A stretch of 64,000 nucleotides of DNA, from positions 186,001 through 250,000 of the forward strand of contig JAEMGR010000016.1 of NCBI GenBank assembly GCA_016458225.1, in the 5' to 3' direction. Positions within the stretch are counted from its first letter, which is position 1. Every line of letters starts with the position of its first letter. The translations under genes and the position numbers were made by a program. The stretch comes from Myxococcaceae bacterium JPH2 (lineage in GTDB: Bacteria > Myxococcota > Myxococcia > Myxococcales > Myxococcaceae). Of this stretch, positions 36,614-39,849 are shown in pieces. The notes under the pieces are model-generated. The model was not told the DNA's origin and searched no databases. It saw only the letters and a list, made by a program, of their open reading frames with translations.

Positions 36614-36715
36614 CAGTAGGGAGCGTGGACGGGGCCGGTGACACTCCCGGCCCGCCCTGGTGTTCGTTTGGGCGTGTGAGGGCGCTGATCCCCCGCGCGA
36701 GACCAGGAGAACACC

Positions 36716-36817
36716 GTGGATTCCACACATGAGCCGGGGGAGACGCAGGTGGGCGAAGGGGCCGAGGCAGGCCGCCAGGTCTCGGGTCCGCGCTGTCTGG
36801 GTCGGGAGGTCGCCTGA
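36716..36817 (+). CDS. Possible 33-aa small protein or leader before the caspase operon
   Basis: GTG at 36716 follows AGGAGA at 5-bp spacing and opens 33 codons, ending 3 bp before the ATG of the next gene. The product is acidic to neutral and Gly/Glu-rich (HEPGETQVGEGAEAGRQ) with no known motif. It may be a leader peptide, the remains of a larger gene, or not translated. The rest of 36614-36715 shows no gene. Confidence 0.35.
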   Translation: MDSTHEPGETQVGEGAEAGRQVSGPRCLGREVA

Positions 36818-36820
36818 GCC

Positions 36821-37624
36821 ATGGTCGCCCACACGCCGGAGTGGTTACTGGAGCGCATCGCCCTGAACGAGCTGCCCGCCTCTCACGTCGCCGCTCGCAC
36901 CCGCCTCCTGGCCGAGCTGGATGGCCCCGCTCGGTTGGCCCGATTGGAGGAGGACTCCCGCCGCACCCTGGAGCGCTTCGCGCCCGCCCAGGTGGCCGCT
37001 GAAGTGGAGCGCCGCCGCCGAACCCAGGCGCTCGCCGCCGAGCGCGCGACCGTGGCGCACCCTTGGTTCGGCTCGCTGACCCTGGGCTTTCCCGTGGCGG
37101 CGTGCCTGGTCCTCCTGGTCCTGAGCGCCTCGCGCGACCTGACGCCCGAGACGCGCGCCACCGGAGTCTCGCCGCTGGAGTGGGAGACGGTGCGCATCAA
37201 GGGCGCGGCCCGGCTGCTCGTCCACCGCCAGGGCGCGCGCGAGCCCGAATCGCTGTCGAACCACTCCCAGGCGCACCGTGGGGACCTGTTGCAGCTGAGC
37301 TACTTGTCCGGTGGCCGCCGCCATGGTGCCGTGGTGTCCCTGGACGGTCGGGGCGCGGTGACGCTGCACTTCCCCGAGCGTCTCACGGGCTCCACCGCGC
37401 TCAAGGCGGGGGAGGCCGTGTCCCTGCCGAACGCGTACGAGCTGGATGACGCCCCCTCGTTCGAGCGCTTCGTCTTCGTGACGAGTGATTCGCCGGTCGA
37501 CGTCGCAGCCGTGCTAGAGGCGGCACGCCGGGTGGCGCAGCAGCCGCAGTCCGCGCGTGAAGTGCGCCTCCCTCTGCCAGAATCGCTGGCCCAGACGTCT
37601 TTCACATTGGAAAAGGTGCCGTGA
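36821..37624 (+). CDS. Anti-sigma-like/DUF4384-type single-span membrane protein
   Basis: A 267-aa protein: cytoplasmic helical N-terminus (TPEWLLERIALNELP, then Arg/Glu-rich helices to 78) like anti-sigma factors but lacking zinc-binding His/Cys; one membrane span (about 84-102); and a periplasmic beta-rich domain with GDLLQLSYLSGG and GAVVSLDGRGAVTLHFP, which resembles DUF4384. Its stop codon overlaps the ATG of the caspase gene (TGATG), so the two are translationally coupled. No sigma-factor gene is adjacent. Assignment is by pattern only. Confidence 0.65.
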   Translation: MVAHTPEWLLERIALNELPASHVAARTRLLAELDGPARLARLEEDSRRTLERFAPAQVAAEVERRRRTQALAAERATVAHPWFGSLTLGFPVAACLVLLVLSASRDLTPETRATGVSPLEWETVRIKGAARLLVHRQGAREPESLSNHSQAHRGDLLQLSYLSGGRRHGAVVSLDGRGAVTLHFPERLTGSTALKAGEAVSLPNAYELDDAPSFERFVFVTSDSPVDVAAVLEAARRVAQQPQSAREVRLPLPESLAQTSFTLEKVP

Positions 37625-39849
37625 TGCGCTGGCTCCCCTGGACCTTCCTCTTGCTTCCCTGGCTCGCCTCGGCGGCCCCCAACGAGCCCTCGGGCGTGAC
37701 GGTGCGCCGCTTCGCGCTGTTGGTCGGCGTCAACGATGGCGGCACGAACCGCCTGCCGCTGCGCTACGCGGCGTCGGATGCGCGCGCCTTCGGGGACGTC
37801 CTGGTGGAGCTGGGCGGCGTGCAGCCCGCGGATCGGATCCTCCTGGTGGACAGCGACCGCGCGGGGCTGGTGGATGCGCTGCGGCGCTTCTCAGACCGCG
37901 TGAAGGCGGCTCGCGGGGCGGGGCGGACCGAGGCGCTCATCTACTACTCGGGCCACTCGGACGAGGAGGGCCTGCTGCTGAAGAATGATCGCTTCGGCTA
38001 CTCGGAGCTGCGCAAGGCGCTGGAGGCGCTGCCCGCCGATGTGCGCATCGCCATCCTCGACTCGTGCGCGTCCGGCACCCTGGCGCGACAGAAGGGGGGC
38101 GTGCTGCGTCCCGCGTTCCTCGTGGACGCGTCGTCGGCCGTGCGGGGCCACGCCATCCTCACGTCGTCCTCCGAGGACGAGGTGTCCCAGGAGTCGGATC
38201 GCATCGGCGGCTCGTTCTTCACGCACAACCTGGTGTCGGGCCTGCGCGGCGCGGCGGACTCCACGGGGGACGGCCGCGTGACGCTGCACGAGGCCTACCA
38301 GTTCGCCTTCCACGAGACGCTCGCGCGCACGGAGAAGACGCGCGCGGGCGCGCAGCACCCGGCCTATGACATCGAGCTGGCGGGCACGGGCGACCTGGTG
38401 ATGACGGACCTGCGCGCCACGTCCGCCGCGCTCGTGCTGGAGGATGGTCTCGAGGGGCGCATGTTCGTGCGCGACGAGCCCGGCCGGCTCGTGGTGGAGC
38501 TGAACAAGCTGGCGGGTCGCTCGACCGAGCTGGGCCTCCAGCCCGGGCGCTATGTCATCACCCGTGAGCGCCGGGGCGAGGGCTCCGAGGCGGCCATCGT
38601 GGTGCGCGAGGGCGCGCGCGCGGCGCTCGCGGACGCGGACTTCCACGCCGTCACGGGTGAGCTGACGGCCCTTCGCGGCGGTCCCGCGGTGGGCGGTCCC
38701 GTTGCCGCCGGTGCGGTGGATGCGCCGCAGCAGGCCGCGCCGCGTCAGCAGACCTTCCTCAACCTGGGCATCGCCCCTGGGGTTCAGACGAACGACATGA
38801 TGGGGGGCGGCGAGCGAGACAACTCGGTGTCCTTCTCACTGGGCGTGGCGCGCATGTCGCGGCTGGATGGCGTGGGGCTGGCGCTGGGCGGCAACTGGGC
38901 CACGGAATCGATGCGCGGCGTGATGCTGGGCCTGGGCGGCAACTACTCGGAGGGCGATGCCTCGGGCGTGATGCTCGGCGTGGGCGCCAACTGGGTGCGT
39001 GGCCGGATTGACGGCGTTCAGGCCTCCTCGGGCGTGAACATGGCGGGCAAGGGCGGCTCGGCGTACCAGCTCTCCTCGGGCGCCAACATCTCTGGAGGGT
39101 CGCTGCGCGGCGCGCAGTTGGGCGCGGGGGCCAACTGGATCGAGGGGGACCTCTCCGGTGTGCAGCTCTCCGCGGGCGTCAACATGGTGCGCGGCCACAT
39201 GAAGGGCATCCAGGGGGCCGCGGGCCTGAGCTGGGCGGACACCGCCGAGGGCATGCAGTTGTCCATCGTCAACGTGGGCACGGACGTGTCGGGCGCGCAG
39301 GTGGGCCTCATCAACATCGCGGGGAAGATGCGCGGCCTGCAGCTCGGCGTCGTCAACGTGGCCACCGACATGGAGGGCGTGCCCGTGGGCCTGCTGAGCA
39401 TCGCGCAGAACGGGCAGTTCCACCTGGAGGTGTTCGGCAGCGACATCAACCCCGGCAACGTGTCCCTCAAGCTGGGCAGCCGGACCTTCTACACGACGCT
39501 CGTCGCGGGCATCGGGGACATGCCGGGCCAGAAGCGTCACTGGACGCTCGGTCTGGGGCTCGGCGCGCACCTGCCGCTGACCGACCGCCTCTTCGCGGAC
39601 GTGGATGTCATCTCCCACAACGTCTTCGGTCTCGAGGAGGGGTGGGACTCCAACCGGCTGCTCCATCAGGCGCGGCTGATCGGCGGCTGGCAGCTCACCT
39701 CGCACCTGGCGCTCATCGGCGGCCCGACCTTCAACGTCCTTCACGCCACGAGCGGCCAGACGGTGGGGCACATCAGTCGGCTGGCGAGCGAAGCAGGCAC
39801 GCGGAAGGTGGTGCTGTGGCCGGGCGTGCAGCTCGGCTTGCGCATCTGA
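37624..39849 (+). CDS. Exported caspase-fold (C14) peptidase fused to a surface-repeat domain
   Basis: A 741-aa protein with a signal peptide (about 1-18), then a caspase/metacaspase-like domain (about 27-255) in which the catalytic dyad is intact: His111 in YYSGHSDEEG and Cys148 in ILDSCASG. A beta-rich spacer follows (265-395). Residues about 403-610 contain about nine or ten repeats of roughly 21 residues of the form GVQLxxGxNxxxGxxxG, like the LA_2272-type surface repeats. The last 130 residues look like outer-membrane beta strands (WTLGLGLGAHLPL). The peptidase is thus predicted to be at the cell surface or in the periplasm. Coupled to the preceding membrane protein. Confidence 0.82.
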   Translation: MRWLPWTFLLLPWLASAAPNEPSGVTVRRFALLVGVNDGGTNRLPLRYAASDARAFGDVLVELGGVQPADRILLVDSDRAGLVDALRRFSDRVKAARGAGRTEALIYYSGHSDEEGLLLKNDRFGYSELRKALEALPADVRIAILDSCASGTLARQKGGVLRPAFLVDASSAVRGHAILTSSSEDEVSQESDRIGGSFFTHNLVSGLRGAADSTGDGRVTLHEAYQFAFHETLARTEKTRAGAQHPAYDIELAGTGDLVMTDLRATSAALVLEDGLEGRMFVRDEPGRLVVELNKLAGRSTELGLQPGRYVITRERRGEGSEAAIVVREGARAALADADFHAVTGELTALRGGPAVGGPVAAGAVDAPQQAAPRQQTFLNLGIAPGVQTNDMMGGGERDNSVSFSLGVARMSRLDGVGLALGGNWATESMRGVMLGLGGNYSEGDASGVMLGVGANWVRGRIDGVQASSGVNMAGKGGSAYQLSSGANISGGSLRGAQLGAGANWIEGDLSGVQLSAGVNMVRGHMKGIQGAAGLSWADTAEGMQLSIVNVGTDVSGAQVGLINIAGKMRGLQLGVVNVATDMEGVPVGLLSIAQNGQFHLEVFGSDINPGNVSLKLGSRTFYTTLVAGIGDMPGQKRHWTLGLGLGAHLPLTDRLFADVDVISHNVFGLEEGWDSNRLLHQARLIGGWQLTSHLALIGGPTFNVLHATSGQTVGHISRLASEAGTRKVVLWPGVQLGLRI

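Follow-up and report, generated by a model that had tools for sequence, protein, structure and literature searches.

Introduction

Genes for bacterial caspase homologues are known to be linked with those of sigma factors. In the sections considered here, the survey of Asplund-Samuelsson (2012; PMC3501461) places sigma-70 genes in four of the five metacaspase operons of Myxococcus xanthus and describes sigma-70/metacaspase operons also in Anaeromyxobacter, Haliangium, Sorangium, Ralstonia and Fibrobacter. In ECF54, a group of extracytoplasmic function (ECF) sigma factors described as lacking an anti-sigma factor, the sigma has a CHAT-protease neighbour proposed to take part in its control (PMC8999054), and DUF4384 domains are fused in cis to orthocaspases of cyanobacteria and Rhizobiales (PMC8283722, PMC6426788). 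A literature search for caspases combined with anti-sigma factors, or for DUF4384 combined with sigma factors, turned up no account apart from PMC3501461 and the remark on ECF54. Here we address a pair of overlapping genes for an anti-sigma-like membrane protein (P0002) and an exported caspase-fold protein (P0001), located in a 64,000-nucleotide stretch (the window; G000:C16:186001-250000) of contig JAEMGR010000016.1 from Myxococcaceae bacterium JPH2, a soil myxobacterium with a genome of 9.0 Mb and a close relative of Citreicoccus inhibens (L050; 91-95% identity). It is quite probable, in our estimation, that this pair, itself without a sigma gene, forms a satellite to an envelope circuit of ECF sigma, anti-sigma and exported caspase, and that it is run in trans by a single sigma factor.

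Results

A sigma-less pair and its sigma-bearing paralogue

The elements on which this reading leans are the following:

36638..36664, + strand: ECF-type promoter GTGACA-N15-GGTGTT, exact match
36821..37624, + strand: P0002, anti-sigma-like membrane protein of 267 aa (its paralogues adjoin ECF sigma genes or overlap them; AlphaFold2 (AF2) model)
37624..39849, + strand: P0001, exported caspase-fold/LA_2272 protein of 741 aa (Pfam, NCBIfam, AF2, Foldseek, invariant columns)

Both genes and their TGATG overlap had been reported in a preliminary reading made from the letters alone (hereafter the sequence-only reading) and are confirmed in the sequence, as is its remark that no sigma-factor gene is adjacent: tblastn of the window locus found none adjoining the pair and no remnant between the promoter and the anti-sigma gene. 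A complete version of the arrangement is present elsewhere in the same genome. Locus B (L009; G000:C3:~591,600-595,300) is one operon of ECF sigma, P0002-like and caspase-repeat genes with overlapping ends, its sigma gene (G000:C3:594721-595191) being assigned to the ECF class by Pfam Sigma70_r2 and r4. The window locus, locus A, is recognized by synteny, with an epimerase gene upstream and tetratricopeptide repeat (TPR) and DAHP synthase genes downstream, and not by tree: the anti-sigma factor (ASF) tree supports clade B (99/96) and does not join all A copies. Citreicoccus, Myxococcus and Pyxidicoccus have locus A in conserved gene order, and the sigma gene is missing from all these copies; in genus g3, locus A has the same epimerase and TPR flanks and retains it. 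Judging from this gene order, the window pair is what remains of an operon that had three genes, for ECF sigma, anti-sigma and caspase, and the best reading is that A and B are ancient duplicates, of which A dropped its sigma gene and retained its promoter. A check fixed beforehand, that the two genes remain neighbours across the family, was run and held; the two-part module of the sequence-only reading thus stands as a conserved pair and proves incomplete, since the pair derives from a three-gene sigma operon. That reading had placed the target of the anti-sigma, if any, elsewhere, and the one surviving paralogous sigma encoded at G000:C3:594721-595191 is its likely identity.

In another genome (G040; L102, 5789-5994) the sigma gene is found in decay: next to an anti-sigma/caspase pair that is still intact, all that is left of it are pieces corresponding to residues 1-50 and 109-153. 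Two loci deposited as 'Comamonas sp. KCTC 72670' (L053 and L063; BNCN01000010.1 and BNCN01000015.1) are of Myxococcus type with full synteny and are probably mislabelled or contaminated.

Reciprocal gene loss across the family

The sigma-less arrangement was mapped within the family of the window, 96 genomes of which were searched for sigma, anti-sigma and caspase genes. In g19, which identical sequences show to be Myxococcus/Pyxidicoccus, locus A consists of anti-sigma and caspase and locus B of sigma and anti-sigma in 26 of 27 genomes, while g3 has the opposite distribution in four genomes (sigma and anti-sigma at A, anti-sigma and caspase at B) and only a full A in two more. Citreicoccus (g1) combines an A of anti-sigma and caspase with a complete B, and most g5-g8 genomes have B only, complete. 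Whatever the distribution, each of the 67 sigma-having family genomes (67/67) contains a single sigma of this subfamily, and the few module-bearing genomes without a detected one are heavily fragmented assemblies. In Myxococcus the third gene of locus B is reduced to a signal peptide and the barrel domain, the caspase and repeats being gone. What follows the anti-sigma gene there (L093, L095-L098, L121) is a conserved gene for an exported, stand-alone barrel of eight strands and about 200 aa, and this barrel may by itself act as a sensor.

A promoter shared by both loci

The consensus GTRACA-N15-GGTGTT lies 39-48 bases upstream of the coding start of B sigma genes at all 14 loci (12 exact, two with one mismatch) and 40-43 bases upstream of A sigma genes (6/6), and it is retained in exact form before the sigma-less anti-sigma genes of locus A (32/32, comprising 29/29 from Citreicoccus and Myxococcus and 3/3 from g5) and of g3 locus B (2/2). 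It also precedes the trios of a Deltaproteobacterial metagenome-assembled genome (MAG) and of Latescibacterota and Gemmatimonadota MAGs; it was found before none of seven zinc-type trios, and in shuffled upstream sequences the best match never fell below two mismatches. In the host genome 16 exact matches were counted (reversed pattern, 0), 15 of them no more than 330 bp ahead of a gene on the same strand (expected by chance for 14% of sites; P 3e-12), and 12 relatives gave 3-15 matches each against 0-1 for the control pattern. Density amounts to 0.75/Mb in 13 sigma-bearing family genomes and 0.076/Mb in 14 sigma-lacking ones (P 4.7e-6, uncorrected for relatedness). The motif is accordingly ascribed here to the locus-B-type sigma as a correlational assignment.

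Among the distant bearers, Latescibacterota and Gemmatimonadota MAGs (L070-L076) encode caspase-repeat proteins 37-38% identical, and those members with upstream sequence have sigma and anti-sigma genes together with the identical promoter. A different conserved site, GTAACACTGSRCGTGCCASGCGGTGTT, occurs in family genomes without this sigma (G009:C1226, G012:C74, G013:C244, G043:C46, G046:C97) and is probably unrelated to it.

On this basis the promoter defines a predicted envelope regulon of about 15 sites in the host genome. Its targets include locus A, locus B, an ExbB/ExbD/TonB/TonB-dependent receptor/lipoprotein/caspase operon, a stand-alone LA_2272 protein, two DUF2807 proteins, a TonB_C/plug protein, penicillin amidase, a cytochrome-c-like protein and two response regulators; DUF2807 (lipoproteins), LA_2272 and the ExbB operon recur as targets in other genera, and several of the single sites may be due to chance. 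The ExbB operon (L129/L010; G000:C5:~923,100-931,040) includes a caspase with LA_2272 repeats, and in Myxococcus genomes, too, the promoter is found, some 6 kb ahead of the orthologue of this caspase.

The membrane protein

The following parts are distinguished in P0002:

36821..37054, + strand: N-terminal four-helix anti-sigma-like domain, aa 1-78 (AF2 helices 7-78; invariant L10, R12, L39)
37088..37132, + strand: single transmembrane helix, aa 90-104 (AF2 and sequence)
37211..37615, + strand: periplasmic DUF4384-like beta-sandwich, aa 131-265 (Pfam E 4.6e-4, below cut-off; predicted local distance difference test (pLDDT) >92)

These parts agree with the anti-sigma-like region, one span and DUF4384-like domain anticipated for this protein. 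Helices 7-78 have pLDDT mostly above 80, and L10, R12 and L39 are invariant in 55 sequences; the zinc motif HX3CX2C, typical of the zinc-associated anti-sigma (ZAS) subset, is absent from P0002, whose helices contain no Cys. With respect to class I-type anti-sigma factors, the helical N-terminal domain is present and an adjoining ECF sigma gene is lacking at the window locus, while locus B and g3 locus A have the anti-sigma gene next to its ECF sigma gene. The helical domain is described as anti-sigma-like and as a putative sigma binder. For the periplasmic part, the match to DUF4384 (PF14326) reaches 20.7 bits against a Pfam cut-off of 27 and appears real even though below it; in Pfam the L013 paralogue reaches 21.3 bits, and for the copy at L009 no match was obtained. 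By profile search, members of this anti-sigma family occur in 111 of 195 Myxococcota genomes and 45 of 90 genera, which marks the family as old and common within the phylum.

The L013 locus (G000:C8, 4660-7561) is a distinct trio of ECF sigma, anti-sigma with DUF4384-like domain and exported caspase. Its anti-sigma has the HX3CX2C motif (zf-HC2 18.2 bits, below cut-off), its caspase is without LA_2272 repeats, and the GTRACA-N15-GGTGTT promoter is absent.

A further frame precedes P0002:

36716..36817, + strand: leader frame of 33 codons, in the reading frame of the anti-sigma gene and one TGA apart from it; no Pfam match

The frame, proposed earlier as a gene that might start the operon, does exist and was rejected as a gene: it is not conserved as a separate frame beyond Citreicoccus. 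It shares the frame of P0002, from which one TGA separates it, and in g5 relatives (L089/L090) the corresponding start runs straight into the anti-sigma open reading frame; a leader or a lost N-terminal extension is the better interpretation. No Rfam match to a structured RNA was obtained in the leader.

The exported caspase

P0001 is composed of a signal peptide and the following parts:

37702..38337, + strand: caspase domain, aa 27-238 (Pfam C14, invariant columns, profile alignment to metacaspase-1 and metacaspase-4)
37954-37956 and 38065-38067, + strand: codons of His111 and Cys148; these and S1 residues Asp52 and Asp146 lie within the caspase domain
38818..39387, + strand: LA_2272-type beta repeats, aa 399-588 (NCBIfam NF047436 above cut-off; AF2 pLDDT >90)
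39394..39843, + strand: C-terminal eight-strand barrel-like domain, aa 591-740 (AF2 strands; Foldseek)

Peptidase_C14 covers residues 28-248 (E 2.7e-13, 50.6 bits against a cut-off of 21.4), and H111, C148, D52 and D146 are invariant in 45 relatives; the signal peptide and intact dyad noted at first sight are confirmed. In the profile alignment Asp52 and Asp146 fall on metacaspase-4 positions of the basic-P1 pocket, residues that we take to form the S1 site. Foldseek returned metacaspases and caspases (probability 1.0 for metacaspases, E 3e-3), and P0001 is assigned by sequence to the C14 orthocaspase/metacaspase type with predicted specificity for basic P1. In the AF2 model (45 sequences, mean pLDDT 80) the caspase (27-238) is followed by a small beta domain (259-335), and a disordered linker leads on to about ten beta repeats, of period 16 and then 14, and to the eight C-terminal strands. 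LA_2272 scores 35.9 bits against a cut-off of 25 over three stretches, and the C-terminus resembles outer-membrane barrels in Foldseek (probability 1.0, E ~0.01-0.06, all above 1e-3). About ten LA_2272-like repeats and barrel-like strands had been claimed, and both were recovered in the model, where the C-terminal half folds as beta repeats plus a barrel-like domain, as the check laid down in advance had asked; of the three profiles suggested with it, C14 and LA_2272 passed their cut-offs and DUF4384 did not.

An eight-strand barrel leaves its N-terminus in the periplasm. The even-stranded C-terminal barrel would place the caspase there, facing the DUF4384-like domain of P0002. The sequence-only reading had put the caspase outside the membrane with a surface domain and called this unusual: export holds, placement at the surface is less well supported, the barrel favouring the periplasm, and exported prokaryotic caspases are not especially rare according to the part of PMC3501461 considered here. 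We regard it as improbable that the barrel presents the caspase at the cell surface in autotransporter-like manner and that the caspase acts on prey or neighbours; the barrel-like domain, the name of the surface-repeat family and export itself speak for such display, whereas the periplasmic N-terminus expected of the barrel, the periplasmic location of the partner domain and a model with no linker helix through the barrel speak for the opposite. Hardly credible, and already disfavoured, is a module for phage defence or programmed death, suggested by the caspase fold and by the nearest NCBIfam caspase model (EACC1-associated, 66 bits against a cut-off of 140), in view of export, the syntenic core locus and the envelope regulon. 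A search for the defence-system reading gave no match to any PADLOC defence hidden Markov model (HMM).

Discussion

Common ancestry with sigma-bearing operons, the kept promoter, one sigma per genome and an envelope regulon are established or strongly supported by sequence comparison. In the circuit that we propose, the B-encoded sigma would transcribe A, B and the envelope regulon from GTRACA-N15-GGTGTT. P0002 would reside in the inner membrane, its cytoplasmic helical domain holding the B sigma and its DUF4384-like domain facing the caspase in the periplasm, and P0001 would be tethered to the outer membrane by its barrel. Envelope disturbance would alter the contact of caspase or barrel with the DUF4384-like domain, possibly by cleavage after a basic residue, and the freed sigma would raise anti-sigma and caspase output, closing the loop. 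We infer that the B sigma is to this day held by the anti-sigma of locus A and that the caspase is periplasmic, with its anchor in the outer membrane; the caspase or its barrel presumably signals to, or cleaves, the DUF4384-like domain, a contact supported indirectly by persistent adjacency and by the published cis fusions of DUF4384 with orthocaspases.

The anti-sigma domain of P0002 is still constrained: the ratio of nonsynonymous to synonymous differences (pN/pS) between the window and C. inhibens is 0.14. Several observations weigh against the circuit nonetheless. The ratio of nonsynonymous divergence in the anti-sigma domain to that in the DUF domain is 1.38 in sigma-less Myxococcus copies versus 0.78 and 0.77 in sigma-bearing ones. 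Measured against the DUF domain, the anti-sigma domain of the sigma-less copies thus has an evolutionary rate about 1.8 times as high; it is relaxed, not free, so that sigma binding may be weakening. Foldseek gave only chance matches for P0002, with no solved anti-sigma structure among them; the loss events behind the counts number about six (about three of sigma, about three of caspase), and reciprocal loss could be simple dosage reduction; and the tie of the motif to its sigma is, as said, correlational. The accelerated domain is the main point for the view that P0002 serves as a membrane scaffold or inhibitor of the caspase with a vestigial helical domain, the sigma merely transcribing the pair. 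Clean loss of the sigma gene from the window locus, constant retention of the anti-sigma next to the caspase and the known DUF4384-caspase fusions suit this view too, and we still judge it unlikely, given that the helical domain is full length and below neutral rate in 29 sigma-less copies and that P0002 is 95% identical between Citreicoccus species.

A greater probability, short of even, belongs to the possibility that the caspase is regulon output only, employed in envelope proteolysis, maturation, autolysis or predation, and that another site-1 protease acts on the anti-sigma. The promoter also stands before caspase and LA_2272 genes that occur alone, with no anti-sigma gene beside them, and Myxococcus B holds sigma and anti-sigma with a barrel fragment only; against this, the anti-sigma is kept beside the caspase at A/B-type loci even where sigma was lost, and a caspase encoded in trans could still act in Myxococcus. 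The bolder version of our circuit, put forward tentatively and with rather more doubt than belief, has the caspase itself, tethered at the outer membrane, as envelope sensor and site-1 protease cutting the DUF4384-like domains of anti-sigmas at two unlinked loci, one sigma being subject to two anti-sigma/caspase checkpoints. If true, it would mean a regulatory, non-death role of a bacterial caspase extending from Myxococcota to Latescibacterota under the same promoter.

For bacterial caspase homologues outside death and defence, a defined set is tied here to one ECF sigma with predicted promoter and regulon, and the orthologue in Myxococcus xanthus (L056) allows a direct test of the sigma-caspase link. 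The two loci further show how reciprocal gene loss can divide a sigma/anti-sigma unit between separate sites in the genome with the promoter persisting, and they warn that 'orphan' anti-sigma genes should be taken neither as dead nor as genes whose target is unknown. The anti-sigma/DUF4384 partner, the split of the loci, the promoter and the regulon appear new, no description having been found within a search whose scope did not extend to the NAR 2021 ECF classification.

Compared with the sigma-70/metacaspase operons of PMC3501461, the window locus itself is without a sigma gene, and the sections of that survey considered here make no mention of a partner with anti-sigma and DUF4384 parts, of split copies lacking the sigma, of a promoter or of a regulon. 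With ECF54 the present system shares an ECF sigma and a caspase-like protease proposed to control it; it differs in having an anti-sigma, and CHAT is a different caspase-fold family. Like RseA/sigma-E and other ECF pairs, it has a predicted membrane anti-sigma with cytoplasmic helices and periplasmic sensor, an autoregulated operon and an envelope regulon; unlike them, it has an exported caspase-fold protein as partner and regulon member and two anti-sigma loci per sigma. P0001 shares the HC dyad, S1 aspartates and C14 fold with orthocaspases and metacaspases (peptidase C14B) and differs from them in its signal peptide, LA_2272 repeats and a C-terminus resembling an outer-membrane barrel. Orthocaspases carrying DUF4384 have it in cis, whereas here the DUF4384-like domain is supplied in trans, on the anti-sigma protein, and the cis fusions support a DUF4384-caspase partnership such as that proposed for the two products of the window pair.

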